DNA from: a virus
Virus record (IMG/VR): IMGVR_UViG_3300026484_000017
Coordinates: 1-42,390 of that record
Length of the DNA stretch: 42,390 nt
Direction: 5' to 3' (one strand)
Shown: positions 1 to 42,390 of the stretch, in pieces
Numbering within the stretch: the stretch's first letter is position 1
Layout of the letters: each line of letters starts with the position of its first letter
The notes under the pieces: model-generated
Database searches by the model: none
What the model was told of the DNA's origin: nothing
The model's input: the letters and a program-made list of their open reading frames with translations, nothing else
Made by a program: the position numbers and the translations under genes

Positions 1-104
1 GTCTTATAAACTACATCATCTAATAAGATTTCCAAAGTTATTGAACCCTTATAAGTTATATAGAAGTCCCTAATAATGTTATCACTATAAGTACTTAAAG
101 GAAT
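1..104. repeat. Copy A of 104-bp direct repeat shared by the two ends
   Basis: Bases 1-104 match 42173-42276 exactly, and the two copies diverge at 105 versus 42277. Both lie in the same reading frame of the nozzle gene and encode the NIPLSTYSDNI to DDVVYKT part of a tail module. Because the sequence beyond the repeat differs, this is an internal coding repeat and not a simple terminal redundancy. Confidence 0.9.
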
Positions 105-2132
105 ATTCGGAGTAGTATACACATCCTCACCAATTCTGTTTAATATCATTGGATTACTATTAATCTTAATAACTTCCTTAAATTCTGAAGAGCTATAATA
201 ATGGGGTGAAGTACCTATAGTATCTCTATCGTAACTCTTAGTCTCTATCTTATATATTTTACCAGCCTCTGTATCATCACTACCGTCACTACACGAAGAC
301 TCAAATTGTATAGTTTTACAAGTACCTAAATCCAGGGTATTAATAACTGTGTAAGAAGAAACACCTGAGTCTATACTAAAAGACTTTATAGGGTCACCAT
401 CATAATATATAGCTAATGCACAAGAGCCTGTACTATATACCCTAATCTCTTCTATAATGTTATCACTTAAGATATTAAGAGGTATATTTGGAGTCTTTCC
501 ATTCTCTTCAATTACATTATTGCCATTAACTATGTAAGACTCTGGGAATAGAGTAGTAGTCATAAACTCAGGGTTATCAAATATTTGGTATTTATTATAA
601 GTATCAAAATTTATACCATATAAGGTACCTGTACCTTCAACCTTAAAATTCAGGAACATCCCATATCTATTATCTGGTATTATCTCTTCTAGTGTTCTAA
701 CCCAAGTATGCTCAACAACCTTAACTATATTATTGTCTATGTAAATAGTAATAGTTAAATCTCCTTCTGCATCTACCTTTATATTATCAAACATCTTATG
801 GTTAGCTATATCTGAGTTGTGCAAATCTGGGCTCTTATAAGTCAAATTTTTATGTGTGTTAGCTGTTCCTATAGTAACTAAGTTACCTCCTGTAGTACCA
901 TATAGAACATCCTTATAAACATATAAACCTTTATATACTGTATCCATATAACTAAATTTTAAATCTCTCCTAAAATCAGCTAGTATAGTTTTATCTTCCA
1001 TCGCTAAATAGTATATATTATCATACACCGCTGCTTGATTAACAGACCCAGTAAATTTACCTAGCTTATCCAAACTAACTAGTTTAGCTACATCTCCATT
1101 AGATATACATATACCGTCATTAGATAACCATACTAATTCTTTATTAACATTAACGATAGACCTTTGGTCAGCACAACCCTGAGTACCATCGAGTAAATAT
1201 AGAGATAATCCTTTAGGGTCCATACCTGTTATTATATATGTTTTATCAGAAGTAAAAGCTAATAATCCTTGAGAGGTTGAACCTAGACCAGTAATAGTGT
1301 CTTTTACATCAATAAAGTTATAAGGGCCCCAGTTCCCTAACCTTCCTATATCTGTATACTGAACCTTAGAGCCAACTACACTAAATAGCATTGAATTATG
1401 TTCCGTTAAATATTTAGCATTAACCAAACCTTTACCAGACCCCTCAGTATATAATATAATATTACCGGCTGCCTGCAAATCAGTTACATTATCTGTATAT
1501 GTATCAGACTCACCCCCATCAGTATCATTCTCAAACTCTTTAACTAATGTATAATCAGTTAAATTCTGACCTATTCTATACAGCCTAACGTGGGTAACCC
1601 TAGAATTATCGGTATTATAGTATTTTAAATCTACATAGTATTGGTCTTTATCTCTAGAAGCTGCAGATATAGTATCAATAATACAAGGTGGAGACTCAGT
1701 ACCAGTATTCTCATCATACCAAGTATAAGCATAGTTAACTTCTCCGCTAAATATATAAGGGTCAAAATCTGTAGTATTATCATTAGGATAATATATAGTC
1801 CAAGACCAGCCTGAAGGTGTAGATATACCTGCAGGTTCACTAGTTGTCTCAGAAGTCTGTAAATTAACAAATGAAGAACCCTCAGTAAATAGTACTCTAC
1901 CCTTATAATTTATTTTGTCATAGTCTTTAGAGATATTTTCCCATTTATCCAATTCCTCATTATAGAAGATGTTATCACTGCAGCTATCATCAATTATAGT
2001 ATCTTTTTTGAAGGCTTTGATAGTTCCATCAGTCAAGTCTACATTCTCAAGCTCTAAAGCTTCCGTTGCTTTTAATAGATGAGGGGCTGAACGAATATTC
2101 AGTCCTCCATCAAATAAGTTAATATTTGCCAT
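1..2132 (-). CDS. Tail nozzle / tail tube-type protein, N-terminal 710 residues (runs off left edge)
   Basis: An open frame starts at ATG 2130-2132, with an AAGGAA-type site just upstream, and stays open to base 1, so the C-terminus lies beyond the window. The N-terminus contains DGGLNIRSAPHLL, the 'GGLN..P' opening typical of podoviral nozzle and stabilisation proteins that plug the portal-adaptor channel. The middle (about residues 180-430) is rich in short beta strands (YDNIYYLAMEDKT, VYKDVLYGTTGGN), which suggests a propeller. From about residue 430 on come related modules of roughly 115-130 residues, each with a core like NIPL..SDNI......G...L.I..D. The gene overlaps the preceding small membrane gene by 14 bp. 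Its missing end is very probably the partial gene at 41659-42390. The nozzle role is by family resemblance; the open frame and the repeats are seen directly. Confidence 0.75.
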   Translation of the reverse strand, partial: MANINLFDGGLNIRSAPHLLKATEALELENVDLTDGTIKAFKKDTIIDDSCSDNIFYNEELDKWENISKDYDKINYKGRVLFTEGSSFVNLQTSETTSEPAGISTPSGWSWTIYYPNDNTTDFDPYIFSGEVNYAYTWYDENTGTESPPCIIDTISAASRDKDQYYVDLKYYNTDNSRVTHVRLYRIGQNLTDYTLVKEFENDTDGGESDTYTDNVTDLQAAGNIILYTEGSGKGLVNAKYLTEHNSMLFSVVGSKVQYTDIGRLGNWGPYNFIDVKDTITGLGSTSQGLLAFTSDKTYIITGMDPKGLSLYLLDGTQGCADQRSIVNVNKELVWLSNDGICISNGDVAKLVSLDKLGKFTGSVNQAAVYDNIYYLAMEDKTILADFRRDLKFSYMDTVYKGLYVYKDVLYGTTGGNLVTIGTANTHKNLTYKSPDLHNSDIANHKMFDNIKVDAEGDLTITIYIDNNIVKVVEHTWVRTLEEIIPDNRYGMFLNFKVEGTGTLYGINFDTYNKYQIFDNPEFMTTTLFPESYIVNGNNVIEENGKTPNIPLNILSDNIIEEIRVYSTGSCALAIYYDGDPIKSFSIDSGVSSYTVINTLDLGTCKTIQFESSCSDGSDDTEAGKIYKIETKSYDRDTIGTSPHYYSSSEFKEVIKINSNPMILNRIGEDVYTTPNIPLSTYSDNIIRDFYITYKGSITLEILLDDVVYK

Positions 2133-2904: not shown

Positions 2905-2919
2905 AATATTCCTTTAAGC

Positions 2920-3366: not shown

Positions 3367-3368
3367 AC

Positions 3369-3886: not shown

Positions 3887-5668
3887 CTAGCCATTACTTA
3901 TTTTCACAGTACCTGAGTCATTCCACAATGCCCCAGCTACTGCAGGGTCTGATGTAGGTATGTCAAATAGTCTTAGGTAAGTTCCATCGTGTCCCATAAA
4001 TTGTTTAGTATTATTAATGAACCATACGGCTTCCGGCTGCATATCTACGACAAATGCCCCCCCTCTAAGGGCTACCCTTGCACCTAATGTTTGATTATTA
4101 CCAAGAAGATTTATCTTTTGCTCATACTTACCTCCCATATTTATATCTCTCGCATAACCTATATCAAGAGAAGAATTATCCGCTTTTAAAAATTGGCCAG
4201 ATATACAAGACAAAGTAGTATATTCAGAACCACTTGCTCCAGTAGTATCTATAACTAAATCACCTATCCTAAGTTTAGCCCTACTTTCTAATCCCGAGCT
4301 ACCATTAATATGCACTTCTTGTTCATACATATTACCCAATTCTAATATACTACTATTAGTATTTATAGAGGTATATGACGAGTCTGCATCAGCATTAATT
4401 TCATCATTTAGTAAATTTGCAGAAGAGTTAAAGATATTGTTACCAATAGAAGCGGTAGAGTTGGTAAGTTTAATATACTCATAATGTTCGCCCGTACCTT
4501 CCATACTAGCTACATTACCATTAATGGTTGCCTCTGTTCCATTTACACCCATAAGTCTATCATATCCGCCCTTCATAGTATTATTACTTATAGTAGCTTT
4601 ATTAGTCCTTATACCTATTGCTTGTTTTGTAGCAACACTAGGGTTATATGAACTGGACATCTCTATAAGGTTTCCACTAATATCCGCCAGCCCTCTGGCA
4701 TTTATATTACCAGCTGATACCTGTATAGCATTATAAAAGCAATCTTTAACTATATTGTTAGTAACAGATACTTTTAACATTTTATTAGTATCTCCAGATG
4801 GCTCATAATCCACAAATGCTCCCGAACCTTCAGAGTAATTACCACTACACATACTATTATTACAGTTCCTAACAGTTATATCGTATCTTTGAGACTTATA
4901 AAAACTATTATTTGTAATATTTAAAGTATTTACTATATTACCAGTCCCAGTATATTCTCCTCCACTAATAGCATCATTCTTAGCATTAAAGAATGTACAG
5001 TTATTTATCGTTATATCTATATCGTTCGGAGTTGATATAGAGTCGAACCATATAAAATCACCGGGTGCAGAAGTTTCAACAACTGTAAAGTTAGTATCCT
5101 GGCTCTCAAATACTACATTTTCTACTTTAATAGAGCCTTTAAATTTAAACATAATCCCTAGAGTAGAGACATTGTTTGTAGTAAACCCGCCATTCAGTAT
5201 TTCTACATCTTCATTAGTAACCTCAATAGTTGAGCCTATGTAATATATATCATTGTTACCCAAATCTACATATTTAAAAGAGTTAAGTACATTAGATATT
5301 ATGGCTGAGTCATCAGTTACATAATCACCTTTTGCTCCAAACCACTTGGGATTAACAGCACCTTCATATTGTCTATGCCAACCCTTAAATATAGTACCTC
5401 CATCATCTACTCCAGTACCCTTGTAGTGAAATATCCCTCCTCTATTTTCATCTTGAACAATTACTGTTTTTGTATTTCCTAGTTCATCTATAACCAATGC
5501 TTCTAAATCTGCGATAGTAGCTAAAACAATAGCTCCCTTCATCTCTGAAGGATTTATCCTCTTAATTGTCTTTATTCCAGTACTTCTTTGTTGACTTACT
5601 GTACCTATACCAGTTATGATATCTTCTGTACCAGCTAATTGCTTGGTAATTATCTTAGTTTCAGCCAT
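3887..5668 (-). CDS. Tailspike, right-handed beta-helix (pectate-lyase-like) receptor-binding protein
   Basis: A protein of 593 residues. Residues 1-60 form a short virion-binding head. Then comes the widely shared phage tailspike entry RGGIFHYKGTGVDDGGTIF..GWHRQY..AVNPKWFGAKGD..TDD (about 75-120), which leads into parallel beta-helix domains of the pectate-lyase superfamily. The body (about 125-440) is a ladder of short Asn/Ser/Thr-rich rungs (NNCTFFNAKNDAISGG, ITNNSFYKSQRYDITVRN), as expected of a beta-helix that binds or cuts surface polysaccharide. The C-terminal 120 residues carry a separate beta-rich cap. The gene overlaps the adaptor stop by one base (TAATG arrangement). Substrate and cutting activity cannot be read from the sequence. 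Confidence 0.85.
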   Translation of the reverse strand: MAETKIITKQLAGTEDIITGIGTVSQQRSTGIKTIKRINPSEMKGAIVLATIADLEALVIDELGNTKTVIVQDENRGGIFHYKGTGVDDGGTIFKGWHRQYEGAVNPKWFGAKGDYVTDDSAIISNVLNSFKYVDLGNNDIYYIGSTIEVTNEDVEILNGGFTTNNVSTLGIMFKFKGSIKVENVVFESQDTNFTVVETSAPGDFIWFDSISTPNDIDITINNCTFFNAKNDAISGGEYTGTGNIVNTLNITNNSFYKSQRYDITVRNCNNSMCSGNYSEGSGAFVDYEPSGDTNKMLKVSVTNNIVKDCFYNAIQVSAGNINARGLADISGNLIEMSSSYNPSVATKQAIGIRTNKATISNNTMKGGYDRLMGVNGTEATINGNVASMEGTGEHYEYIKLTNSTASIGNNIFNSSANLLNDEINADADSSYTSINTNSSILELGNMYEQEVHINGSSGLESRAKLRIGDLVIDTTGASGSEYTTLSCISGQFLKADNSSLDIGYARDINMGGKYEQKINLLGNNQTLGARVALRGGAFVVDMQPEAVWFINNTKQFMGHDGTYLRLFDIPTSDPAVAGALWNDSGTVKISNG

Positions 5669-6636
5669 TAAAAAGCTCCTCTATAATTAAATTCATATTG
5701 TTTATTACTATTTCTAGTAAAGTCCATAATATCATCTTTGATAGCTTCTTTTAACTCTCTATCATAGAATGCTAATTCCTCATTACCTATTACTCTATTC
5801 TGAGTATCCATATCGTCCCTTAAGGCTTTACCCGTTACATAGTACTTGATTGCTGCGTCAAAGCTATCATCTATCTCAAGTATATCTGTTAATGAAGTGA
5901 TAACATTAGGTTTCTTTAAATAGTATACTGTTAAGTACGGCGATATTAGTTGAATACCAACTGTAACCCCATAATTATCTTCATAAAACTTCTCTGTACT
6001 TTTATCCTCTGATAAACTAACTAGTATACCATAATCACTGTTTTGGTATACTCCATCAATAGAAACGACTATACCATAATCAGTACTATCAAAAGGGGTA
6101 ACTATTAATTCATTTGCTATACAAGACGAAGCTATTCCATAATCACTATCAAAAGCGACACACTCACAGTCAGTAGCTATAGCATTTGTTATAATACCGA
6201 AATCTTCTTCTATAAATTCCCTTGTTTCCCAGTAACCTGGGTGGATGAATTTATAAATTGAACCCTCTAAATCAGGTATAGGATAAAGCTTAAATTTTCT
6301 CCTATTCTGTTTATCATATACTACAGATTGTGGAGTACCAGTATCACTCTCCCAGTCATTTAGTCGTCTGTCCAATTCTAAGTGAGAAACGAAAGGTATA
6401 ACCCTTCCATCATATAGAACTCTGTCTAAAAGTAATAAATCGTCTGGTAGATTATACTCAACCTTATTATTAAAGATACTAATTTCGGTCTTGGCCCTTA
6501 ACAGTTTAGCCTTTCTACATATATCCTTTTGAGCCTCATCTACTAAGCGTATTAAACGTTCATCAGACCATCTGTCTCCAGTTGGGTCGGCTAGTGTATC
6601 TCTAACTCTAAGTATAATATCTGAAATTCTACTCAT
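5668..6636 (-). CDS. Head-to-tail adaptor protein with an inserted repeat block
   Basis: The 322-residue protein begins like podoviral adaptor/connector proteins (SDIILRVRDTLADPTGDRWSDERLIRLVDEAQKDI: helical N-terminus that sits on the portal) and ends in an alpha-helical tail (DAAIKYYVTGKALRDD...ELAFYDRELKEAIKD). Between them, residues about 140-232 hold five short repeats centred on D/N-F/Y-G-I/V (145, 165, 187, 201, 221), each followed by a beta-type strand. This block looks inserted into the central beta domain (YPIPD...LTVYYLKKP). It would join the portal ring to the nozzle. It follows a strong terminator, so expression is probably lower than that of the capsid gene. Confidence 0.75.
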   Translation of the reverse strand: MSRISDIILRVRDTLADPTGDRWSDERLIRLVDEAQKDICRKAKLLRAKTEISIFNNKVEYNLPDDLLLLDRVLYDGRVIPFVSHLELDRRLNDWESDTGTPQSVVYDKQNRRKFKLYPIPDLEGSIYKFIHPGYWETREFIEEDFGIITNAIATDCECVAFDSDYGIASSCIANELIVTPFDSTDYGIVVSIDGVYQNSDYGILVSLSEDKSTEKFYEDNYGVTVGIQLISPYLTVYYLKKPNVITSLTDILEIDDSFDAAIKYYVTGKALRDDMDTQNRVIGNEELAFYDRELKEAIKDDIMDFTRNSNKQYEFNYRGAF

Positions 6637-12640: not shown

Positions 12641-12653
12641 TAAAATTCTTGTT

Positions 12654-15639: not shown

Positions 15640-15648
15640 TTAATTTAT

Positions 15649-15689: not shown

Positions 15690-15722
15690 GTTTATAAATA
15701 AATTAAATAAGGAGAATGAAAA

Positions 15723-18404: not shown

Positions 18405-18441
18405 AAATTTAATAAAACTTTAATAATTAAATTGGTATAAT
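18404..18441 (+). promoter_or_regulatory. Middle promoter, variant of the shared element
   Basis: AAAATTT-AATAAAACTTTAATAAT followed by eight bases and TATAAT (18436-18441). It is one base shorter than, and differs at a few places from, the identical copies at 15649 and 25221. It drives the 18550 early paralogue through a leader of about 100 bases. Confidence 0.75.
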
Positions 18442-18482
18442 GTTACTACAAAAACAAATAAATGTTGTTTGTTTACTTGTTA

Positions 18483-19204: not shown

Positions 19205-19879
19205 ATGGCAAAAGGTCTTAAAGTTAAAACAAAAGTAGGTCCACTTAAATATGTATTTATTACAGGTGAGGGTAGAAACAACGCGATGAAAGGTGAAGAA
19301 CCAAGAATGCAATATGTTGCTAGTCTATGCGTACCAAAAGATGGAGAAGTTCACAAAGCTTTTAGTAAATTAGTTTATGAAGAGTGGGAGAACTATAAAA
19401 AACAATATGGGGTTAAAGGTAAACCTGCACTAAATAAGAATGGTGAACCTATGGACGGTATGAAGATTGAGAAACAAAAAGATCCTAAAGGTGAAATTGA
19501 CCCTCAAACTGAGGAAGTTAAAATGATACCTACGGGTAATATTCTTATTACTTTTAAGACTAATACTAAATGGCCTGACGGTAACCCTCAGGTAGTAAAA
19601 GTATTTGATGGTAAAGGTAAAGATATAACTCAAGCAGTTCACAATGCTGACTGGGCTATAGGTGAAGGTTCAACTGGTATTATTCACGGTACTGCCGTTG
19701 GTAACAACACTGGAGGTTCACATAAAGTTACTTTATACTTATCTGCTGTGCAAATTGCTAAATTAGTTAAATATGAAGGTAATGATATAGATGCTGAAGA
19801 TATAGGTGGAGAAGACATCGATTTAGGTGACTCTGTTGCTGGTATAGATGCTGAAGACTCAGAAACACCTGATATTTAA
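19205..19879 (+). CDS. Single-stranded DNA-binding protein (DUF2815 / T7 gp2.5-like)
   Basis: A 224-residue protein with the pattern of phage DUF2815 proteins: a basic OB-fold-like body (VGPLKYVFITGEGR near the start, NILITFKTNTKWPDG, VKVFDGKGKDIT, HKVTLYLSAVQIAKLV) and a long acidic C-terminal tail (about 196-224, many Asp/Glu, ending ETPDI). The acidic tail is typical of SSBs and docks polymerase and helicase. It sits just before the polymerase gene and is followed by an intrinsic terminator, suggesting a separately boosted, abundant product. Confidence 0.8.
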   Translation: MAKGLKVKTKVGPLKYVFITGEGRNNAMKGEEPRMQYVASLCVPKDGEVHKAFSKLVYEEWENYKKQYGVKGKPALNKNGEPMDGMKIEKQKDPKGEIDPQTEEVKMIPTGNILITFKTNTKWPDGNPQVVKVFDGKGKDITQAVHNADWAIGEGSTGIIHGTAVGNNTGGSHKVTLYLSAVQIAKLVKYEGNDIDAEDIGGEDIDLGDSVAGIDAEDSETPDI

Positions 19880-21960: not shown

Positions 21961-22031
21961 GGTATGGAGAAATTAAGAAGCTTGCTAATGAAGCACCAAG
22001 TAACCAGTCAGAAGTAAAAGGAGTAAGTTAA
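21957..22031 (+). CDS. Tiny 24-residue coupled reading frame
   Basis: ATGA overlap with the basic protein, ending on TAATG at the exonuclease start. The product begins MRYGEIKKLANEAPSNQ. It may be a translated linker that couples ribosomes to the exonuclease gene and not a functional protein. Confidence 0.4.
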   Translation: MRYGEIKKLANEAPSNQSEVKGVS

Positions 22032-22034
22032 TGG
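22018..22034 (+). repeat. 17-bp direct repeat at gene junction, copy 2
   Basis: Exact second copy of the ribosome-site/stop/start block found at 21768-21784; here it starts the flap exonuclease. Confidence 0.9.
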
Positions 22035-23011
22035 AAATAGAACCAATAGAAAGTGAAGAAGATATGATTATAATAGATATAGATGCGGCGGGTAATGAAC
22101 TACCATCAAAACACGATAAGATAATTATAGTCGATGCTGATACTATAGCTTTTGCTGCCTGTTCAGTTAAAGAGTATGAGGTAGAAGTTCTTGGTGAAGA
22201 ATTTCATACTCCTGAAGAAATGGCTGAGCTAAGAAGTAAGAAGAGTTGGAATGAAGAAACTTTTACTTATAGGGATATAGATATTAATGAGTCTATACTT
22301 CACGCTAAAGGTAAGATGGACTTAATTCTTGATAGGATTGGAGGTAAGATTGAGAATACAGAATTACACTTCACATCGGGTAGAAACTTCAGATACGATT
22401 TACTTGAAGATATGTTCCCAGATAAACCAGAGATGTGGTATAAGGCTAATAGGGGTAAGAGAAAACCTGCACCTGTAGGATTAGCAGAAACTAAAGATGG
22501 TTTGAAAGCCCACTTTAAAAGTATGTATCATACTAAAGTAGAGGCTGATGATTATGTAGTTATGAGAAAGAAACAACTAAGGGAAAATGGTATATTAGTC
22601 ATAGTTGATAAAGATATATATAATAACTGCCAAGACTATGGGCAACCCCACTGGAATTATTATGAAGCTCCTTGGTTAAAGAACCCTATTAAAATGAGAT
22701 GGGTTGATAGATCACCAGAAGAAGCTATGTATAATCAATACTTACAGGCTATTACAGGGGATAAGTCTGATAACATACCTGGACTTAAAGGAATAGGCCC
22801 TAAGAAAGCTGCTAAATATTTAGATGAGGGTATGACTGAACTTGAACTATGGAGAGGTTTAGAAACAGCTTATCTACAGCACTGTAAATATGTACCAGAG
22901 GGTAAGACTCCAACTGATATGGCTGTCTTAAATATGAGATTGGTGAATATGCACCAACTACAAGAAGATGGTGAGATAATACTATGGCAACCAAAGACTA
23001 GTAAAAATTAA
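22031..23011 (+). CDS. 5'-3' exonuclease / flap endonuclease (T5 D15, T7 gp6 family)
   Basis: 326 residues. Metal-site motifs are IIIVDADTIAFAACS (about 31-45), YKANRGKRKP (arch/Lys-Arg cluster, about 138-147), HTKVEADDYVVMRKK (about 168-182), LVIVDKDIYNN (about 189-199) and the helix-hairpin-helix QAITGDKSDNIPGLKGIGPKKAAKYL (about 238-263). It would remove primers and recess ends during replication and recombination, complementing a polymerase without its own 5' nuclease. An acidic N-terminal extension (EIEPIESEEDMIIIDIDAAG) of about 25 residues precedes the catalytic core. Confidence 0.9.
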   Translation: MEIEPIESEEDMIIIDIDAAGNELPSKHDKIIIVDADTIAFAACSVKEYEVEVLGEEFHTPEEMAELRSKKSWNEETFTYRDIDINESILHAKGKMDLILDRIGGKIENTELHFTSGRNFRYDLLEDMFPDKPEMWYKANRGKRKPAPVGLAETKDGLKAHFKSMYHTKVEADDYVVMRKKQLRENGILVIVDKDIYNNCQDYGQPHWNYYEAPWLKNPIKMRWVDRSPEEAMYNQYLQAITGDKSDNIPGLKGIGPKKAAKYLDEGMTELELWRGLETAYLQHCKYVPEGKTPTDMAVLNMRLVNMHQLQEDGEIILWQPKTSKN

Positions 23012-25182: not shown

Positions 25183-25220
25183 GTTAATAGTTCAAACATT
25201 AAATAATAATCAAATAATAC

Positions 25221-25261
25221 TAAAATTTTAATAAAACTTTAATAATAATTTTGATATAATA
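25221..25261 (+). promoter_or_regulatory. Middle promoter, identical 41-bp element
   Basis: Exact copy of 15649-15689, with ACTTTAAT, eight bases and TGATATAAT (-10 at 25255-25260). It drives the nucleotide-metabolism operon that begins with an HTH gene; transcription would start about 25 bases before ATG 25292. Confidence 0.85.
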
Positions 25262-25291
25262 CATCATCTTTAAATAAAGGAGGATAACTAA

Positions 25292-25561: not shown

Positions 25562-25904
25562 TTTACAAGAAGTAGAAAGTAAGATAGTTAATTGGTCATT
25601 AGATAGAGGGATATTAACTAATGGTAATGCAGTAACTCAATGTATGAAACTAATGAGTGAGATGGGAGAACTGGCTGACAACCTTATTAAAGGTAAAGAT
25701 GTCAAAGATGATATAGGTGACTGTTTCGTTCTATTAACTAATATAGCTAGATTAAAAGGAACTACACTAGAAGAATGTGCCAATGTTGCTTATGAAGATA
25801 TCAGAGACCGTAAGGGTTTCTTAAATGAACAAGGTAACTTTATTAAAGATACTACACCAGGTTATGATGAACTATATGCTGATTTCTTAGCAGGGGATAA
25901 GTAA
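25554..25904 (+). CDS. MazG-like nucleoside triphosphate pyrophosphohydrolase
   Basis: 116 residues. KLMSEMGELADNLIKGKDVKDDIGDCFVLLTNIARLKG carries the E..E (about 36-40) and D..GD (about 53-57) metal ligands of the MazG/all-alpha NTP pyrophosphatase fold; LEECANVAYEDIRDRKG adds the fourth helix. It turns NTPs or dNTPs into NMPs. In this gene set it could supply dCMP or dUMP for the deaminase, ThyX or ThyA-like enzyme, or lower ppGpp-type signals as proposed for marine phage MazG. Substrate is not deducible. One-base overlap with the next gene. Confidence 0.82.
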   Translation: MYNLQEVESKIVNWSLDRGILTNGNAVTQCMKLMSEMGELADNLIKGKDVKDDIGDCFVLLTNIARLKGTTLEECANVAYEDIRDRKGFLNEQGNFIKDTTPGYDELYADFLAGDK

Positions 25905-26464
25905 TGAATACTTTATATGTAGATGTAGAAACAACTGGACTTATTAAGTATGTTCACGGTATTATAACATTAGCTTATATTATAGAAGATACTAATGGGG
26001 TTGAACTAATAAGAGGTGAGATTGAAATGAACCCACTATCTTATAGTAAGAAGGTATCTGATAAAGCTTTAGAAGTAAATGGTTATACATTAGAACAAAT
26101 CAAACAGTTACCAGATGCTAAAGAGGCTTGTTTAGAATTTATATCAGTACTAAACAAGTATATAGGTAACGATGATAAATATAAATTAGTTGCTTATAAC
26201 GCAGATTTTGATACAGGCTTTATTCAAACTTGGATGGATAAGTTAGTTCCTTCTACTTACTGGAAACTAATTGATTATAAACATCTAGATCCTTTTGCTT
26301 TGATTAAGTACTTACAATATCTAGGTAAGATTGATACGGGTAAATCACAAAGCTTAGAAGCTGTTGCTAAATATTATGGGATAGAACACAATGCTCATAA
26401 TGCTATGAGTGATATCGAAGTTACAAGAGAGATACATAATAAACTAATTAGGGAGTACTTATGA
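25904..26464 (+). CDS. DnaQ-like 3'-5' exonuclease (DEDDh)
   Basis: 186 residues. ExoI LYVDVETTGL (Asp7, Glu9), ExoII VAYNADFDTGFIQTW (about 96-110) and ExoIII HNAHNAMSDIEVTREI (about 164-179, with the His of the DEDDh type) are all present. It resembles RNase T/DnaQ family nucleases. The polymerase already has its own proofreading domain, so this enzyme may serve in repair, recombination or host DNA breakdown. Coupled at both ends (TAATGA and ATGA overlaps). Confidence 0.87.
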   Translation: MNTLYVDVETTGLIKYVHGIITLAYIIEDTNGVELIRGEIEMNPLSYSKKVSDKALEVNGYTLEQIKQLPDAKEACLEFISVLNKYIGNDDKYKLVAYNADFDTGFIQTWMDKLVPSTYWKLIDYKHLDPFALIKYLQYLGKIDTGKSQSLEAVAKYYGIEHNAHNAMSDIEVTREIHNKLIREYL

Positions 26465-27830: not shown

Positions 27831-28439
27831 ATGAAAGTAACATTAGAGGATTATAATAATAGAACTGAAGAGATGATAGCTACCTCGGCAGCTATTTGTT
27901 ATAATAGTAAACCTAAGAACCTAGAGATGATTGAGAAAATGAAGGAGCACAAACATCTAGCTACTTTTAGATTTGGTTTTGCAGTTATCAAGATAGAGGA
28001 TATATCTAGTATAACAGCGGTACAGACTCTGAGAACAAGTTTTGCAGATATGTTAGATAGTGACAGCCATCTATGGGAAAGTCAAAGATATGTTGATCAG
28101 TCTGATAGAGATTTTGTTGTTCCTCATTGTGAGTACTTAGATGAAAATAATAAAGATTTTGCTAGAACATTATTCAATTTTATGAATAATGAGTCAAGGA
28201 GTACATATAATAAATTAATAGATTTGGGGGTTAAGAAAGAAGATGCAAGATATGCTTTTACAAGAGCTATAACAACGGACTTATATATAGCTGGTAATAT
28301 GCAAATGTGGTCACAATTTTTAAAACTAAGAACTGATAAACACGCACAGTGGGAAGTTAGAGCTATGGCTAATGAGATAGCTTTAGTATTATCTGAGAAG
28401 TTCCCAAGAATTATGGATGAGTTTACAAATGACAACTAA
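27831..28439 (+). CDS. thyX: Flavin-dependent thymidylate synthase (ThyX) with a divergent signature
   Basis: 202 residues, near the usual ThyX length. EHKHLATFRFGFAVIKIEDISSI matches the H...EH..FTF region loosely, and DARYAFTRAITTDLYIAGNMQMWSQFLKLRTDKHAQWEVRAMANEI matches the strong C-terminal ThyX motif (AR......T......N.r.w..F..lR...hAQ.E.R). The hallmark RHRxxS motif is degenerate: LRTSFADMLDSDSHLWESQRY has Arg but not the His-Arg, and is about six residues longer before SQRY. It should turn dUMP into dTMP using FAD and methylene-folate, if active. Confidence 0.8.
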   Translation: MKVTLEDYNNRTEEMIATSAAICYNSKPKNLEMIEKMKEHKHLATFRFGFAVIKIEDISSITAVQTLRTSFADMLDSDSHLWESQRYVDQSDRDFVVPHCEYLDENNKDFARTLFNFMNNESRSTYNKLIDLGVKKEDARYAFTRAITTDLYIAGNMQMWSQFLKLRTDKHAQWEVRAMANEIALVLSEKFPRIMDEFTNDN

Positions 28440-34004: not shown

Positions 34005-36251
34005 TTATTCATAATCCTTTAACACATCCCCTAGTTTGATTTTGATAATCTTTTCTGCTTCCTCTTTAGGAAGTTTAACTCCCACGGAACTCTCAATCCT
34101 CTTTATTAACTGATTAGCCTCATCTTTTACAATAGTTTTAACTACTTTCATATTATGATTAGCCTCATCGACTTTAAGCTTCTTTCTTGTATTACTAAGT
34201 ATTCCTTCAAACCTCTTAGACTCTATAGACTCACTAATCTTATTTACAACGTTATCTTCATACTTATTGCCCAAAGCCTTTCTAACTAAGTCCCTTTGTC
34301 TATCATGTAGGGTTACCTGTGAGGCATCAGAACCAATGGTCCCTTCTGGAGTGGCATAGGCAGGTTTAACATTAATGTCTCCAGTAGATTTCATACCTCT
34401 CTTATACTCTATCTGGGCTGGTTTCGGTAGCTCAGCCTCTATCTCATTTATGATGGCATCTAATTGCTCTTTACCATCATCAGGAAGATTTTTAACTTTC
34501 TTAAGTTTTTCTAGCCTTTGTTCATATGTAACCTGGCTACCCTTCAAAGAATTCACCAGTTCTCTCTGTAGTGCCAATGCTCTACCTCGTTCAGTGCCTA
34601 GCATCTCATTACCTAAATCCCAAGCTATCTTCCAAGGCCTACCATATAAACTAAGGATATTAGACTCCTTAGCTCCTTCAGGTTTTATATATTTACCAAA
34701 CTCGGCATCATTTACATATACTCTCTCTAGTTCTTTAAGTATAGGTTTAAGATACTCAACCTTATCCCCGTTTATACCTTCTTTTTTAATCAAGCTTCTC
34801 AATTTACCCCAATCAGTACCAAAATCATTGGTACTGGCTTGAGTCAAGGCCTTCCCCAGTTTATAGTCATTTACTGTAACCCTATAGTTATCTATAACCT
34901 CCCTCATAGCTTTTTGTAAATCTGGTCTATCTACCATAGAGCTATCTATAAAGCCATCAACACTTTCCTTTATTTCCCCTAGAGCCCATTTACCTTGCTT
35001 ACTTAGTGAAGAATTACCTAGTACACCATTAATATTTTCCCTTATGTTTATAGCATCACTAACAGTTAATTCTCCTGACATATCCTGCTGAACCTTCCTT
35101 ATGGTGGTACCTACATTACTAATGTCCGTAGCATATATATCAGTTAATATTTTATTAACTTTATCATCAATATGAGGAGTAGAGGTATGAGGTAATTCCT
35201 CTGCTATTTTACTTCTCATAGCATTATATAAGTTTTGAGACTTAACCATATCATCTTCAGTTGCAGCTAGTTCCCTAACTATATTATGTCTGGACTCTAA
35301 TCTTTTTCCTAGTTTAGCCATAACATCATCTCCCCCTTTTCTAGCGGCATCTTTCATAAAATTCCCGTATAACTTATCGGTTTCTACCATAATAATAGCT
35401 TGGTCTTCCTTTGGCAAAGTAGTTACCTCTTTAGAGAATTGCTCCTCTGTTATTCTACCCTGATTAAGTTCTTTAAGTAATTTGGCACCCTCTGAGGTAT
35501 TCCCTAATTTACTAGCTATTTTATCAACCACAGAAGCCATAAGTTTACCTCCTAGGAAGGTTCCTAGACCTATACCAGCAGATGTTAAATAACTATGACC
35601 TTCACCTAATTGTTGTAATGCTACCTGAGTTGCTCCAATAGGTAATGATGAGCCACTTAATGCAGTCGCCCCTAAAACATCCCCAGTAAGTTTAGTACCT
35701 CCGCTAAGTTGAGAGCCAACAGTTTTGCTGTTATCAATAGCCTCCTTACTATGTAAATCTAGCCCCGTCACATCTTCAACTATTTTATTTAGCCCTGCTC
35801 CAGTACTCATTATAGCATTACCTGTAGCTACTAGGGGATTATCTATTGTTGACTTTAGATACTCAGGATTACTATTATCAATTTTAAATTGAGTCACTTC
35901 TTTCTGCTTATCTTCAGGACTTATATCATCAGGTAAGCTTCTCATAAAATCCGTTAATTTAGTAGGTTCCACAGACCCTGTAGTGTTCTCCGGCTTATTA
36001 ACTATAGGAGCTTGTATAGTCTTGGTAAAATCTTGAACAGCTTTACCTAAGGCTTCACCAGTAACTCCATTAGACACCTGGTCTTGTATAAATTCAGTTA
36101 GTTTAGTACTATAATCAGTATTAACCGTCTCTTGGGTAGGTTGCTCTTCTACCTCCCAAGGAGCTTGTCCTGCCTTAAATGCTATCTCCGGAGTAGAAGA
36201 TTGCTCTTCTACCTCCCAAGGAGCTTGTCCTGCCTTGAATGCTATTTCCAT
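34005..36251 (-). CDS. Large internal/ejection-type virion protein with N-terminal tandem repeat
   Basis: 748 residues, last gene of the late block, directly coupled to the portal stop. Residues 2-17 and 22-37 are the same peptide EIAFKAGQAPWEVEEQ, repeated at a 20-residue (60-bp) period. After a polar linker comes a Gly/Ala/Ser-rich stretch with helical hydrophobic parts (about 160-230, AIMSTGAGLNKIV, YLTSAGIGLGTFLGGKLMASVV), then about 500 residues of charged helices and coiled coil. This make-up fits proteins that are packed inside the head and ejected into the host. No enzyme motif was recognised. The repeat may be a capsid or portal docking signal; that is a guess. Confidence 0.65.
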   Translation of the reverse strand: MEIAFKAGQAPWEVEEQSSTPEIAFKAGQAPWEVEEQPTQETVNTDYSTKLTEFIQDQVSNGVTGEALGKAVQDFTKTIQAPIVNKPENTTGSVEPTKLTDFMRSLPDDISPEDKQKEVTQFKIDNSNPEYLKSTIDNPLVATGNAIMSTGAGLNKIVEDVTGLDLHSKEAIDNSKTVGSQLSGGTKLTGDVLGATALSGSSLPIGATQVALQQLGEGHSYLTSAGIGLGTFLGGKLMASVVDKIASKLGNTSEGAKLLKELNQGRITEEQFSKEVTTLPKEDQAIIMVETDKLYGNFMKDAARKGGDDVMAKLGKRLESRHNIVRELAATEDDMVKSQNLYNAMRSKIAEELPHTSTPHIDDKVNKILTDIYATDISNVGTTIRKVQQDMSGELTVSDAINIRENINGVLGNSSLSKQGKWALGEIKESVDGFIDSSMVDRPDLQKAMREVIDNYRVTVNDYKLGKALTQASTNDFGTDWGKLRSLIKKEGINGDKVEYLKPILKELERVYVNDAEFGKYIKPEGAKESNILSLYGRPWKIAWDLGNEMLGTERGRALALQRELVNSLKGSQVTYEQRLEKLKKVKNLPDDGKEQLDAIINEIEAELPKPAQIEYKRGMKSTGDINVKPAYATPEGTIGSDASQVTLHDRQRDLVRKALGNKYEDNVVNKISESIESKRFEGILSNTRKKLKVDEANHNMKVVKTIVKDEANQLIKRIESSVGVKLPKEEAEKIIKIKLGDVLKDYE

Positions 36252-38080
36252 TATCTTTCTCCTCCGACACTAGGTCTTCCACTATTATTATTCATTGCCT
36301 GTCCCTGTGGCATCTGTCCATCTAATTGGCCTTGTTGCATAGCTTGTTGCTGTTGTCCACCTAACATAGCAGCTGTTTGCTCAAGTATTTGAGATAACTC
36401 TAAACTATATTTAGACTTAACATTTTTAACACTCATACTACCAGCTTGAAAATAACCAGCCGGATTAACTTGACTTAATAAGTTACCTAGAGGGCCATTA
36501 ATAAATTGTTCTAATAGCTTCTGGTTTTGTTCATCATCATCATTAAAGCTAACAGTATCTATTTCTATTTCACTCTTTGTAAAAGCTATATCAGTATCTA
36601 ATGTTGGTATAGGTGCCATAATGATATTCCCTTTATCATCTTTCATAGGCTTACCATCTTCTGGATTAGTAACCTCTTCAAACATTAACCTAGTTTGAGG
36701 TTGTCCAGTCATAGGGTCAACTTTACCTGTAGGAACTCTTAAAGGTTTATTTAGTTCAACCCACCTATTACCTTGATAGTTATCGCTAACTCTTAATATA
36801 TCGTGTGCTGTGAAATACTGTTTAATTAGATTAATTATATCCCAACCAAGTAATCTATAGAATTGCTCTATTTTAGCTACACTATATCTTTGTGCTACTG
36901 CCGAAGCATTTTGTTGTAGCCTAACCTTTGTACCACTATCACTAGCATATGCCATACCTAAGAAACTATCGTTAATACTAAGTACTCTCTGAACTCTATC
37001 TAGTGCTCTATCTATAACATTGTATTGGTCTAATACCTCTCTAGTTAAATTCTCTATTTTAATACCAGCTAATTCTTTAACGGGTATAATAGCATTTACT
37101 CTATTAAACTGGTCTGTAAAATCAGATAAGTTATCTACAGCTCCATCTTCAACAAAAGCCTTCTGAGTATTAACCATTAACTGTATCTTTAATAAGGCTT
37201 GATTAACGGCATTTTGAGTTTCCATAACTTCTCTGAATAATCCATAGAATTCTGTCCTATTACTAGTATTAAGCTTTTGAACTCTATAAGGATTTTTAAC
37301 TTCTTTATATGTTATTTCTTTCTTATCTAATAAGATATTATCGCACCAATAACAACTATATGATTTACCATTATCTTTTATTATAGAGTGAACTATAAGG
37401 TAGTTATCAAATAGTTTAAACTTCCCTTGAAACTCAGTACTATATGTATAAGTAAAGTCTGCTTCATCTATATTAAGATGATTATAGTAAGCATCAATTT
37501 CCTTTCTTTTAGCTTTACCCCAAAGAGAGTCAACTATATCCTCAGATACCCATTTAAACCTGTGTATATATCTGGCATCACTATAATCATCTAACCTAGA
37601 CATAGGGTCAATAACTATTTCTAGACTCGGAACGTGATGTATATTAATACTATACTTAGGTCTATTAAACTCATCAGTTTCTCCCGTCTCTTGAACATCT
37701 GTGTAGCTGCACATTATACCAGTAAGTATACAGTCAAGCTTTATTTTATCCCCTTCAGAGTCAAAATTATTAGTTCTAAAAACATAATCTACTGTATCTT
37801 GTAAAACCTGTGCAGTTTCTATGCTATCTTCTTTAGCTGGGTTTACTTTAACTCTATTAACTATTGTAGAGTAGTAACCTAATAACATCCTACCAAACAT
37901 TTTAACGAGATTAAATGTTTCTGGTGGCTGGCCTCTGTTGGCAAGTATGCTTAACTGCTCATCTGTATATTGCCTATTATGATAATAATCTAATACCTTT
38001 AGAGCCTCATTACGAGACTCCTCATAGGTATCATAGCTAATTTTGAATGTATCTTGTAAATTTTCTATTGTTGGTTTCAT
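36251..38080 (-). CDS. Portal protein (P22-like)
   Basis: 609 residues. It begins with the helical DTYEESRNEALKVLDYYHNRQYTDEQ...RGQPPETFNLVKMFGRMLLGYYSTIVNRVKV pattern of P22-type portals, carries the wing region (HHVPSLEIVIDPMSRLDDYSDARYIHRFKWVS), a stem/crown helix pair (EVLDQYNVIDRALDRVQRVL, KVRLQQNASAVAQRY) and a Gln-rich flexible end (QQQQAMQQGQLDGQMPQGQ). It forms the dodecameric DNA gate at one head vertex. It is far from the terminase in window coordinates but belongs to the same leftward block once the ends are joined. One-base overlaps on both sides. Confidence 0.88.
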   Translation of the reverse strand: MKPTIENLQDTFKISYDTYEESRNEALKVLDYYHNRQYTDEQLSILANRGQPPETFNLVKMFGRMLLGYYSTIVNRVKVNPAKEDSIETAQVLQDTVDYVFRTNNFDSEGDKIKLDCILTGIMCSYTDVQETGETDEFNRPKYSINIHHVPSLEIVIDPMSRLDDYSDARYIHRFKWVSEDIVDSLWGKAKRKEIDAYYNHLNIDEADFTYTYSTEFQGKFKLFDNYLIVHSIIKDNGKSYSCYWCDNILLDKKEITYKEVKNPYRVQKLNTSNRTEFYGLFREVMETQNAVNQALLKIQLMVNTQKAFVEDGAVDNLSDFTDQFNRVNAIIPVKELAGIKIENLTREVLDQYNVIDRALDRVQRVLSINDSFLGMAYASDSGTKVRLQQNASAVAQRYSVAKIEQFYRLLGWDIINLIKQYFTAHDILRVSDNYQGNRWVELNKPLRVPTGKVDPMTGQPQTRLMFEEVTNPEDGKPMKDDKGNIIMAPIPTLDTDIAFTKSEIEIDTVSFNDDDEQNQKLLEQFINGPLGNLLSQVNPAGYFQAGSMSVKNVKSKYSLELSQILEQTAAMLGGQQQQAMQQGQLDGQMPQGQAMNNNSGRPSVGGER

Positions 38081-39519
38081 TATTTAACCTCTATCCAATC
38101 ACCATTAGGCAACTGTTTATATTTCTTTCCATTGTATTCTTTTACATTACCATCATTGCTGTCATTATTAGTAGGCTGGTCATTACTAGGATTAGTAGTG
38201 CTAGCGTTGGTGTTATTAGTTCCATAACCTTCTCCATATGTTGTTAATTTAATTGCTGTATCTGGTAGATATTGAGCATTGTTATTTTTCAATATTATAT
38301 TAGACTCCTCTGCTTCCTTAGCAAATTTCCTCATTGCTTCCTTAACAAATTTCTCATCTGCTAAATCCCCACCCTGGAATAAATTAGATAGTCTTTCGGC
38401 TTCTTCTCTACCTACTGCCGTACCAGACATATCTTTCATAAATCTAGCCAATATTAAACCACTAGCAGTATTAAAATCTACATTCTTTAGAGCTTGTGGG
38501 GTAGCATTACCGAATATTTTATTTATATAGGTATGAACATTAGATACAGCATCTTTATCTACTTTAACAGTTCCACTATCAGCCTCTTTTAATATCCTAT
38601 TAACATTGGTTACAATACTGTGGTTAGCAGTCATATCTTTAATAGCTTTTTTAACACTTTGTTTCTTAGTAGAGTCCAAATCACCTAGTATTACAGTTTC
38701 TAGGCCTATAGCCTTTTCCTTGTCATAGTCTTTACTATTAACAAGTTTTATAGCTTCAATCTGAGAATTAACTAATTCCGTATTTTCCTTGTCTTTCCTG
38801 TTAGAAGCTACCCCTAGCACCGATTTCTTCATAACTTTATCTATATATCTATCTAGCTCTTCCTTGGTAGCATTAGGTTTATTCCTTTTAAATGTCTCTA
38901 TTTGTTTTTGAAATTGCCCATATTGCTCCTTAGTACCTCTATTATTCTTAACAGCTATTGATTTATTTTTCATTATCTCTGACTTAAGTTTATCTTGTTG
39001 GTACTTAGCATTTTCCATTGCTAGTTTCTCCTTAGCTTCAACACTAGCATAGCCATTTCTAATCTTATAATCTGTCCAATCTATTAGCTTCTTAGAACCA
39101 TCTGGAAGTATACCTACTACAGTTTCGTGTCCCTCAGGTATCTTCTTAGACTTATAGAGAGCTACATTAGCCGGACTTTTATCTGTAGGGTCAAAAGATA
39201 CTACTTGAACTGCTCCATCTAATGTATTCTGCATATTTCTATCGCCTTTTAGTATAGCTGAGAAATTGGTTAAAGACTTCTCTTTCATAGTTTTATAAAT
39301 ATCCTTGAGCTTTATACTCTTTTCTAGCTCCGCAAGTTTAAGTTGTGTTTCTTGTAACTTAGCTTCAGCCGACTCTTGATTAGTATTAGCTAATCTCTGT
39401 TGTTGGGCGAATTTAGCTTTTTGCTGTTCACCATAAAGTTGTTTCTCTTTCCTAGTTCTAACGGCCTCAGAACCATCTATAATACCGTTAAGAACTGCTG
39501 CTGTTGCTCCATAATTCAT
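38080..39519 (-). CDS. Structural protein, probable ejection/internal virion protein
   Basis: 479 residues; a long coiled coil at about 20-75 (RTRKEKQLYGEQQKAKFAQQ, ESAEAKLQETQLKLAELEKSI), further charged helices (about 155-250), and a polar Asn/Thr/Ser-rich linker (about 430-465, NNTNASTTNPSNDQPTNNDS) followed by a small end domain KEYNGKKYKQLPNGDWIEVK. No catalytic motif. It lies between the portal and another ejection-type gene, where podoviruses keep internal proteins. Function is inferred from place and composition. Confidence 0.6.
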   Translation of the reverse strand: MNYGATAAVLNGIIDGSEAVRTRKEKQLYGEQQKAKFAQQQRLANTNQESAEAKLQETQLKLAELEKSIKLKDIYKTMKEKSLTNFSAILKGDRNMQNTLDGAVQVVSFDPTDKSPANVALYKSKKIPEGHETVVGILPDGSKKLIDWTDYKIRNGYASVEAKEKLAMENAKYQQDKLKSEIMKNKSIAVKNNRGTKEQYGQFQKQIETFKRNKPNATKEELDRYIDKVMKKSVLGVASNRKDKENTELVNSQIEAIKLVNSKDYDKEKAIGLETVILGDLDSTKKQSVKKAIKDMTANHSIVTNVNRILKEADSGTVKVDKDAVSNVHTYINKIFGNATPQALKNVDFNTASGLILARFMKDMSGTAVGREEAERLSNLFQGGDLADEKFVKEAMRKFAKEAEESNIILKNNNAQYLPDTAIKLTTYGEGYGTNNTNASTTNPSNDQPTNNDSNDGNVKEYNGKKYKQLPNGDWIEVK

Positions 39520-39530
39520 TAATCTTCTCC

Positions 39531-40931
39531 TTAACTTAATGCGTACTGAATACCGAGATTAGCTATTGCACCATACATTTGGTTCTTAGAATTATCCTCG
39601 GCTATATCTTTGTTACTATCTATCATAGCTTGGTTATTTAACATATTGCTAGTATTAGTATAGGCATCGTTTAATTGTGCCTGTATCCCTTGAGCTTGAC
39701 CAGTACCTATTTTCAAGAAATTAGATTGTTGGTCAGCCACCATCTGTGGAGCTAATGTATGTGCTGTAGCCTTATCTCTGGCTGCACCCATAGCTAAATC
39801 TGTTTGTGCCTGAACCCAAGCACCACTGTCAGATAATCCTCTCTGTTCCATAGCATCACTAAGCTCTCTAGTTTGTTGTTGATAAGCATTTTGTATATCT
39901 ATAACGCTCTTAGCTTCATAGCTATCTGGTGTCAGTGTACTATAATAATCTGATAGGTTTTCCTCTATAGGTTTATATATAGCATCCCAAGACTCTTGTT
40001 TATCCTTAGCCATTTGTAACTGTTCAGCATTTAGCTGTTCTTGGGTCATACCTTCATCCCCATACTTATCATCAATAGTTTGCTCTCTTACCATAGGGGT
40101 AACTGTACCATCATTAGAACTGAAACCTACAGAATAACTCTCCCCTGATAATAATCCACTATACTCATCATCACTAAGAGATATACTGTTTGAGCTATTT
40201 ATAGAGTCTTCCATAGCCCCTATACTATCTGCCACCGTTGATGCAGACTGAGGATTTTCATAAGTATGAATTTGCCCCCCTGCCCAATAACCAACAACAG
40301 TACCTATTGGACCAAACACAAGACCACCTATGGCAGCTCCCAGTTTTGAGGCTGCCTTAGTTTGAGCTTCTTCTTTAGCTTTTGTAGCTTCACTAGCCTC
40401 TGTAAATGATTGGGTAGTTTCTTTACCTGTGTCTGGGTCAAACGAAGTAACAGTAGATAACCCAGTAACAGCATCATAAGTCTGTGTAACATCAGTAGTA
40501 GCATCATAGCTAAACAAATTACCATTTACATCCCTAGTGGTATAACTACCATCTAGGCCAACTGTAGTAGTTACTCCCTCATTTGTAAATGTCCCCGACA
40601 TTACTCCAGAGTCCTCTGAACTACCGAGGCCATCTGATGTATTAGATATCCCATCAAGCCCAGTACCGTCAGAATTGAACCCTGTTCCAAGTTCAGCATC
40701 CTCTTCATTATAACCTATCCCATAATCTCCAAGGCCATCTTCACTATTGTTATCATTGGTTGAAGAGGTATCTGCACTAGGGTCACCATAACCGTAGTCT
40801 ATGCCGTCAACACCTTCTCCATAGCCTCCCATAGAGGCAAATCCCCCATCACCCCCGAAGCTATCATCTCCATCACCTTCCCATCTAAAGCCGGGAAAAC
40901 CTGCAGTTCTTATTGTATCCCTAATATTCAT
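39531..40931 (-). CDS. Structural protein with acidic Gly/Asp-rich N-terminus and glycine-zipper segment
   Basis: 466 residues. Residues about 15-110 are an acidic, Gly/Asp/Ser-rich low-complexity region (GDGDDSFGGDGGFASMGGYG). Beta-type repeats follow (about 110-180). A glycine-zipper hydrophobic stretch, KLGAAIGGLVFGPIGTVVGYWAGG, lies near residues 193-218 and could cross a membrane. A helical C-terminus (YQQQTRELSDAMEQRGLSDS, ARDKATAHTLAPQMVADQQS) resembles podoviral internal/ejection proteins. It may help form the DNA channel across the host envelope; this is inference. A promoter candidate lies just upstream. Confidence 0.62.
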   Translation of the reverse strand: MNIRDTIRTAGFPGFRWEGDGDDSFGGDGGFASMGGYGEGVDGIDYGYGDPSADTSSTNDNNSEDGLGDYGIGYNEEDAELGTGFNSDGTGLDGISNTSDGLGSSEDSGVMSGTFTNEGVTTTVGLDGSYTTRDVNGNLFSYDATTDVTQTYDAVTGLSTVTSFDPDTGKETTQSFTEASEATKAKEEAQTKAASKLGAAIGGLVFGPIGTVVGYWAGGQIHTYENPQSASTVADSIGAMEDSINSSNSISLSDDEYSGLLSGESYSVGFSSNDGTVTPMVREQTIDDKYGDEGMTQEQLNAEQLQMAKDKQESWDAIYKPIEENLSDYYSTLTPDSYEAKSVIDIQNAYQQQTRELSDAMEQRGLSDSGAWVQAQTDLAMGAARDKATAHTLAPQMVADQQSNFLKIGTGQAQGIQAQLNDAYTNTSNMLNNQAMIDSNKDIAEDNSKNQMYGAIANLGIQYALS

Positions 40932-40979: not shown

Positions 40980-41669
40980 TTAATAATAATCTTTATCAAT
41001 CTTCATTATATATGCAATAGCATAGTATGGAGGTACATACTGATGAGTATGCCCATCACCATTACCGGTGCTACCAGAGTTTGGATGGTCATAATCCAAG
41101 TTTTTCTCTGTTATACTAGTATCGTGGTCATCATTATCAGATACATTTACTATCTTACTACTCCAGCTATATTGTCTAGGTATAAGAGTACGAGTAAAGC
41201 TATGAGTATGCGAAGGTAATTCATTAACTTTAAGAATATGCTCTTCGGTATCAAAGGTTCCCTCTGTATTGATAGTAGTATCACTAGTACCTCCTATCGC
41301 TATCTCTACATCATTATCATCAGCATCCTTGTAGGTACCAGCACCCAATATAAATCTAAGTGTTAAGTCTGGAGTTTCTATATCCTTACCATTCCTTAGC
41401 TTTACAGTTTGTCCATTACATATGTACCAGTGCTCTGGGACATCTTCCTCCTTCCCAGACCACATAACTATTGAAAATTGAGGTATAGATACTCTATCTA
41501 TATACCTCTTTATCTTATGCCATTGAACATTATTTGAAATAGCTATCTCAGACTTAACTTTCGATATGCTTGCATTATTGTTGTACTTCTCCCTATTTCC
41601 TATATCAATCTTATTAATCTTATGTTTTAAAGCTAGTATTTCTCTATTTACTAATTCTCTACCTACCAT
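40980..41669 (-). CDS. Tail-collar domain fibre protein
   Basis: 229 residues. After a short N-terminal helix (EILALKHKINKIDIGNREKY) comes the phage tail-collar domain: SIVMWSGKEEDVPEHWYICNGQ (about 87-108), TPDLTLRFILGAG, NELPSHTHSF and GDGHTHQYVPPYYAIAYIMKI at the end. The HxH pairs are the metal-binding motif of T4 gp12-like short fibres. It probably trimerises and contacts the host surface. It overlaps the nozzle stop by 11 bases, so the two are translated together. Confidence 0.85.
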   Translation of the reverse strand: MVGRELVNREILALKHKINKIDIGNREKYNNNASISKVKSEIAISNNVQWHKIKRYIDRVSIPQFSIVMWSGKEEDVPEHWYICNGQTVKLRNGKDIETPDLTLRFILGAGTYKDADDNDVEIAIGGTSDTTINTEGTFDTEEHILKVNELPSHTHSFTRTLIPRQYSWSSKIVNVSDNDDHDTSITEKNLDYDHPNSGSTGNGDGHTHQYVPPYYAIAYIMKIDKDYY

Positions 41670-42390
41670 TTGTTTGCCTTTCTAGGGGGTTTATCTCTAT
41701 TTCATATACTTTACCTTTAGTACCTATTATCTCAATACGTATATAGTAAGCTCTGCTTAAGGCAGAATTTAATAGTATCTCATCAACTTTAAAAGTATCA
41801 CTATTTAATTCCACTGTCTTAACAACTGCACCATCCAAATATAGTTTAAATGTTAATTCTCCCTTATAAGCTATAATGAAACTCTTAAACATTTTATGAT
41901 GTGTTATACTTAAAGGAATTGTATCACTTATATAACCACCTTCTGTCTTATTAAGTTTTATAGTTGAGCCATTAACATTTATTAAGTCAATAAATTTCTC
42001 TGTATCATAAAATGCTCCAGCTTTACTAATATTGCTTTCATCGTAACTATTATAGTTAATATCGTAAATCTTACCACTTGTTACCGTTTGCTTAAACTTA
42101 ATAGTTTTACATACCTCATCGTTAAGGTCTATTTGTTCGGTAGATAAGGAACTAGTATTACTTAAGTTAAGAGTCTTATAAACTACATCATCTAATAAGA
42201 TTTCCAAAGTTATTGAACCCTTATAAGTTATATAGAAGTCCCTAATAATGTTATCACTATAAGTACTTAAAGGAATTGTATCACTTATATAACCACCTTC
42301 TGTCTTATTAAGTTTTATAGTTGAGCCATTAACATTTATTAAGTCAATAAATTTCTCTGTATCATAAAATGCTCCAGCTTTACTAATATT
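41659..42390 (-). CDS. Tail nozzle protein, C-terminal 243 residues (runs off right edge)
   Basis: The frame is open from base 42390 to the stop at 41659-41661, so there is no need for the TTG at 42205-42207 as a start; translation enters from outside the window. The chain holds the end of one tail module, one full 119-residue module (DTIPLSTYSDNI... to ...GGYIS) and a final shorter module (DTIPLSITHHKMFKSFIIAY...EIEINPLERQTNGR) that resembles an early module of the left-edge part (NHKMFDNIKVDAEGDLTITI). Joined to 1-2132 through the shared 104 bp the frame is kept. The joined protein would have at least 881 residues, or about 1000 with the extra module that the right edge implies. Confidence 0.8.
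   Translation of the reverse strand, partial: NISKAGAFYDTEKFIDLINVNGSTIKLNKTEGGYISDTIPLSTYSDNIIRDFYITYKGSITLEILLDDVVYKTLNLSNTSSLSTEQIDLNDEVCKTIKFKQTVTSGKIYDINYNSYDESNISKAGAFYDTEKFIDLINVNGSTIKLNKTEGGYISDTIPLSITHHKMFKSFIIAYKGELTFKLYLDGAVVKTVELNSDTFKVDEILLNSALSRAYYIRIEIIGTKGKVYEIEINPLERQTNGR
41907..42033. repeat. 127-bp direct repeat, inner copy (357-bp period)
   Basis: Identical to 42264-42390, the last 127 bases of the window. The offset is 357 bases, which is 119 codons, so the two lie in frame in consecutive tail modules. Confidence 0.93.
42173..42276. repeat. Copy B of 104-bp repeat shared with the left end
   Basis: Identical to bases 1-104. It encodes the same part of a tail module; the context beyond 42276 is the 357-bp module family and not the sequence found after base 104. 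Confidence 0.9.
42264..42390. repeat. 127-bp direct repeat, terminal copy
   Basis: Matches 41907-42033 base for base up to the last base of the window, so the true length of this copy is not known. The window ends inside the repeat. Confidence 0.93.

Follow-up and report, generated by a model that had tools for sequence, protein, structure and literature searches.

The stretch of DNA analysed here, called the window, is an entire IMG/VR virus record of 42,390 bp. Its two ends lie in open coding sequence and carry long exact repeats, which raises the questions of which gene is affected, why the sequence stops inside it and how the repeats were made.

The interrupted gene and its repeats

A minus-strand reading frame is open at both window ends (2132 to 1 and 42390 to 41659). 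Direct closure of the circle from 42390 to 1 was rejected as it broke the frame. A filler of 139 bp, expected from the 357-bp period of the repeats, restored a single uninterrupted frame across the junction. If the period holds, the missing stretch measures 139+357n bp, because only such a filler closes the frame, and the full gene has a minimum length of 3,003 bp (1,000 residues). The two gene halves in the window matched the N- and C-terminal parts of a single gene in the relative L011. A first-pass annotation had placed both ends in one gene, and this was borne out by the open ends on the same strand, the in-frame closure with 139 bp and the L011 match.

The same annotation had called the gene a tail nozzle gene, and the profile match to the Ralstonia phage GP4 nozzle (8jov) and the Foldseek matches agree with it. 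Protein P0002 matched phrog_511 (E 2.9e-46), and its relatives in phage isolates (Pseudoalteromonas PH1, Vibrio VPMS1, Edwardsiella KF-1, Dickeya Amaethon and others) are named 'internal virion' or 'phage stabilization' proteins. The family profile matched the GP4 nozzle at E 7e-27 and 5e-34 (8jov_A, 5e-34). The complete homologue of L011, to which the window protein is 31% identical over residues 1–706, was modelled with AF2 (pLDDT 86.7). With this model, Foldseek returned the GP4 nozzle first (8jov, E 1e-20), followed by Pa223, T7 gp12, P22 gp10, VP1, Sf6 and SU10, and the first 25 PDB fold matches were all phage tail or nozzle chains. The gene shares a structural block with adaptor (PF24175), capsid, terminase, portal and ejection genes; as for the GP4, P22 gp10 and T7 gp12 nozzles, to all of which the fold was matched, its operon position is between the capsid/adaptor and the ejection/portal genes. 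It differs from these three by at least four extra C-terminal modules. The gene encodes the nozzle of a T7/P22/GP4-type podovirus. The nozzle is hexameric in solved relatives.

An exact-match check of the window confirmed the basic observation of repeats at its ends. A 127-bp direct repeat (41907–42033 = 42264–42390) has an offset of 357 bp, that is, 119 codons, and a 104-bp direct repeat joins positions 1–104 to 42173–42276; the lengths of both, the in-frame offset and the module size of 119 residues had been given correctly at first pass. After these two, the longest exact repeats of the window measured 65 bp, in a non-coding array at 12.65 kb, and 41 bp. The 127- and 104-bp repeats are far above chance, because about 17 bp is expected (our own estimate) as the longest chance repeat in 42 kb at 34% GC. 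The modules are named D0 to E2 in Table 1; within the last ones, b denotes the first half shared by E1 and E2, X the second half shared by D2 and E1, and Y the second half of E2. The earlier claim that the modules are identical at DNA level stands in part: the first ~42 codons of E1 and E2 are identical in DNA, and so are the second halves of D2 and E1 over their sequenced extent, but the second half of E2 has diverged from the X copy (67% identity in DNA, 31% in protein).

Table 1. Positions of the nozzle gene parts, repeat copies and associated genes in the window
Feature	Positions	Strand	Basis or remark
Nozzle N-terminal strands, beta-propeller and in-propeller domain (residues 1–429)	846..2132	−	phrog_511, E 2.9e-46; fold of L011 homologue
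D0, sole C-terminal beta-sandwich domain common to all relatives, probable platform domain	597..845	−	Alignments; T7 gp12 C-terminal domain (PMC6702177)
D1, first extra module, 123 aa, diverged	228..596	−	Alignment
D2, second extra module, truncated by contig end; last 104 sequenced bases are the X repeat	1..227	−	
E1, penultimate module, 119 codons, b segment then X half	42034..42390	−	
E2, terminal module, diverged second half (Y), conserved ending PLERQTNGR-stop	41659..42033	−	Orthologous to L011, L038 and L012 terminal modules
X repeat, copy 1	1..104	−	Identical to 42173–42276
X repeat, copy 2	42173..42276	−	Identical to 1–104
b repeat in E1, 127 bp, terminates at contig end	42264..42390	−	Length equals terminal overlap of related contigs
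b repeat in E2, 127 bp, identical to E1 copy	41907..42033	−	Exact match
Adaptor protein, SU10 adaptor family, expected nozzle partner	5668..6636	−	PF24175, E 1.9e-22
Tail collar/fibre-like gene downstream, 229 aa, overlaps nozzle stop	40980..41669	−	phrog_5795, phrog_1800
gp2.5-like ssDNA-binding and annealing protein, candidate in repeat recombination	19205..19879	+	phrog_112, E 5.7e-14
5'–3' exonuclease, candidate in repeat recombination	22031..23011	+	phrog_107, E 5e-38; PF01367 below cut-off

The nozzle was 31–38% identical to those of close relatives, in which the portal reached 75–80%, the capsid 76% (L011) and the endolysin 84% (L070). The putative ejection proteins (39531–40931 and 38080–39519) were divergent too. 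The nozzle and ejection block would thus evolve much faster than the head, which fits adaptation to host surfaces.

Number, position and predicted fold of the modules

Module number was compared using the number of residues between the WLSDGI motif and the stop codon, which was 178–198 in 70 relatives, 308 in L038, 311 in L012, 422 in L011 and 666+119n in the window. From these lengths, the relatives have zero, one or two extra modules and the window at least four; about 70 relatives stop after the single C-terminal domain and three carry one or two further modules of ~119 residues. The count for L011 is complete, since its contig has a 127-bp end overlap. In the tree, the four multi-module phages fell within one supported clade of 18 members, with at least two changes of state; the exact place of the window in this tree is unsure because its row sits on a long branch. 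A search for further multi-module phages with the terminal module recovered only L011 and L038 again. Queries with the exact repeat-junction pattern, P0001 and P0002 found no member of the same population and no closer relative, and no nozzle was found in prophages or hosts among 84,980 prokaryote genomes. In phage isolates, homologues of the array were limited to one weak single-domain match.

In T7 gp12, the C-terminal domain and three N-terminal strands form the adaptor-facing platform, and the tip is a propeller insertion (PMC6702177). In SU10 (Kuravirus), the four Ig-like nozzle domains of gp17 are an insertion between blades 2 and 3 of the propeller (PMC9509320). SU10 resembles the window in having a string of beta-sandwich domains on the nozzle protein and in its adaptor, to whose Pfam family the neighbouring adaptor of the window belongs, but the SU10 domains form the tip, whereas the extra modules of the window come C-terminal to D0, past the propeller and not between blades 2 and 3. 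Because they follow D0 after the propeller, the modules should project on the platform side and not at the tip of the nozzle. By analogy with T7 gp12 and SU10 gp17, they would be appended at the adaptor-facing platform end, and the 'tail tip' location proposed at first pass is probably the wrong place. A chain of at least four domains could still reach down the tail.

Each module was predicted to consist of a three-strand segment and four long strands. An AF2 model of E1+E2 (pLDDT 81.5) was compared with PDB folds and matched carbohydrate-binding and other jelly-roll folds at low TM-scores; because of these scores, the predicted assignment is limited to a general beta-sandwich, possibly glycan-binding-like. 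The modules may act as lateral arms that touch the host surface or dock fibres. In the L011 model, short strands were predicted at residues 2–4, 27–29 and 38–40, with four long C-terminal strands. If the b segment had arisen as a copy of the platform strands at the N-terminus, each module would be a complete contiguous platform domain; this idea was rejected (hhalign E 0.3; shuffle p 0.07–0.67, not significant).

Growth of the array and the break in the assembly

In a tree of half-modules, the terminal second halves (window E2, L011 M2, L038 M1 and L012 M1) clustered with a support of 0.943, and since they cluster across phages, the terminal module is an old one that these phages share. The second halves of window D1 and E1 clustered with a support of 0.977, which argues for expansion of the inner modules within the lineage of the window. 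The array would have last grown when a 357-bp unit, X-b, which runs from the second half (X) of a module into the first half (b) of its neighbour, was duplicated in tandem and in frame, turning a-X-b-Y into a-X-b-X-b-Y. Over the sequenced part, which lacks 139 bp of one copy, the tandem duplication in the window is in frame and exact. The copies in the last modules are still identical in DNA, as expected from the earlier proposal that some modules were copied recently. A single recent duplication of X-b would be the simplest history and would account for everything seen in the window. The likely route would be recombination or annealing between similar module segments, for which the gp2.5-like annealing protein and the 5'–3' exonuclease of the phage are plausible machinery, to judge from their families. 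We consider it real that modules of a podovirus nozzle were recently duplicated in frame, inside a clade with varying module number.

To survey terminal overlaps, both ends of 20 related contigs were compared. A terminal exact overlap of exactly 127 bp was present in five of them (G001, G002, G008, G010 and G015) and would be the trace of a de Bruijn assembler working with k=127 on a circular genome. The internal 127-mer at the right end of the window begins immediately past the mismatch 41906/42263, and a contig that stops at a junction in a k=127 graph would look like this end. At the left end, the repeat is 104 bp long, 23 bp short of 127, and fits this reading less well. Contig G003 likewise starts on an internal repeat of 104 bp, in an unrelated place, and the left end may therefore be a trimmed assembly junction. 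An exact repeat of 370 bp, its length if the gap continues the period, would exceed the 127-bp k-mer and would have broken the assembly within the gene, so that 139+357n bp are hidden. That the repeat broke the assembly had been suggested at first pass, and the identity in length between the right-end repeat and the terminal overlap of related contigs speaks for it. Taken as a whole, the explanation is likely to be a nozzle with a platform-type domain and at least four modules, grown by X-b tandem duplication through recombination, with the assembly broken as a consequence.

Because the contig needed reads holding the X-to-b junction, at least some molecules should carry two X-b units, and the contig-end data fit a fixed and a variable copy number alike. 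It is conceivable, though we hold it with some doubt, that copy number is polymorphic, with coexisting genomes that carry one, two or more X-b units and are selected during host coevolution. This is the case in EfV12-phi1, whose tail fibre gene gains variable in-frame 1.8-kb tandem duplications under coevolution (PMC6365445). Array length differs among the related phages, and a copy-number mixture is compatible with the assembly graph that the contig ends imply, but an assembly at k=127 would break just as well at a 370-bp repeat fixed at two copies. Variation in copy number between virions, raised at first pass, would be plausible, and the effects on reach or receptor choice raised with it are speculative.

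The b segment has been copied more than once, as judged from near-identical DNA in the same first-half segment of L011. The b segments of the two extra modules of that phage share 62 bp exactly and are identical at 87 of 90 bases, with three synonymous and no nonsynonymous codon differences in 30 aligned codons, whereas the second halves of these modules are only 36% identical in protein (unalignable in our wording). Since near-identical b halves adjoin divergent second halves, the L011 pattern needs gene conversion or exchange of halves. This copying was independent of the event in the window, because the b segments of both phages are only 43% identical in protein, and copying of the same half-module in a second phage suggests a repeatable route. 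Concerted evolution, in which repeated gene conversion homogenises the first halves of modules and second halves are perhaps exchanged horizontally, could therefore be proposed for the window instead of tandem duplication, its b segment being identical as well. We find this rather unlikely: b and X are both identical in the window, which is more simply obtained by one duplication. A wider proposal, which we regard as unlikely but worth stating, joins duplication and recurrent exchange: an expandable, recombination-driven array of glycan-binding-like modules at the platform end would differ in module number among virions of one population, the b half-module would be a recurrent recombination site for module gain, loss or second-half swap, and the whole would act as a contingency system for tail–host contact without a dedicated enzyme.

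The second b copy could also be an assembly or amplification chimera, the true genome having a single a-X-b-Y. The repeat sits exactly at a contig end and one contig end is without the expected 127-bp overlap, but a k-mer assembler requires reads across the X-to-b junction to write 42173–42390, the repeat offset is in frame and L011 has the same kind of repeat mid-contig, far from the ends, all of which makes a chimera improbable. A dedicated variation system (a diversity-generating retroelement or an invertible segment) acting on this host-contact gene with repeats is hardly credible, as the copies are exact, without adenine-directed mutation, and direct, not inverted, and no reverse transcriptase or invertase was present among the ORFs with family hits, in a scan that took in part of the small ORFs.

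Known systems and further features of the genome

The nozzle is usually regarded as a conserved DNA gate and channel, and one phage clade alters its length by whole modules. Growth of this tail part is traceable by sequencing because the newest copies are still identical in DNA. Such genes end up cut short or open in short-read viral catalogues, which calls for caution in their use.

The class of mechanism is already known from EfV12-phi1 (PMC6365445) and from BACON arrays (PMC6949934). EfV12-phi1 shares with the window an in-frame exact tandem duplication within a host-contact tail gene, but its unit of 1.8 kb lies in the long tail fibre of a myovirus and that of 357 bp in a podovirus nozzle. 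Its copy-number variation was observed in experimental coevolution. In crAssphage, according to the part of the published account available, the tail-associated BACON repeats (PMC6949934) likewise form a tail domain array grown by internal single-domain duplications; they differ in that the domain family is another one, the array is stable and conserved within a lineage, and that part reports no identical DNA copies. A literature search of partial coverage found no account of podovirus nozzles with C-terminal arrays of modules. The novelty seems to lie in the position of the array, C-terminal on a nozzle, and in the recurrent copying of a single half-module.

Several other features were recorded. 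When L070 was compared with the window at 2395–3812, the lysozyme and two neighbouring proteins were 76–86% identical and the adjacent nozzle 33%, so that divergence rises abruptly at the nozzle boundary. A non-coding direct repeat array of AAGCAATAACAGAAC (12653–12826; 21- and 28-bp spacing; 49-bp superunit, 98% alike) directly precedes a DUF5906 primase-like gene and was absent from all 154 fetched loci; the repeats are possible replication origin iterons. The 748-aa protein adjoining the portal gene starts with a near-exact 20-residue repeat (36138–36249; EIAFKAGQAPWEVEEQ twice, 94% DNA identity), which a simple motif search did not find in related loci. AT-rich promoter-like repeats (TTTAATAATAATTTTGATATAATA; 15646–15706, 18399–18459 and 25207–25278; 69–87% alike) lie ahead of gene groups. 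Genes of the ThyA-type and ThyX-type thymidylate synthase families (23367–24083 and 27831–28439) occur together in this phage, which also has ribonucleotide reductase, dCMP deaminase and C5-cytosine methylase genes. A DNA polymerase (19949–21781) and a separate polymerase-exonuclease-like ORF (25904–26464) lie about 4 kb apart and are possibly a split polymerase. At the ends of the L012 contig (L132 and L133), two versions of a small putative holin-like gene differ by an in-frame deletion and are apparently strain variants that broke the assembly of L012.
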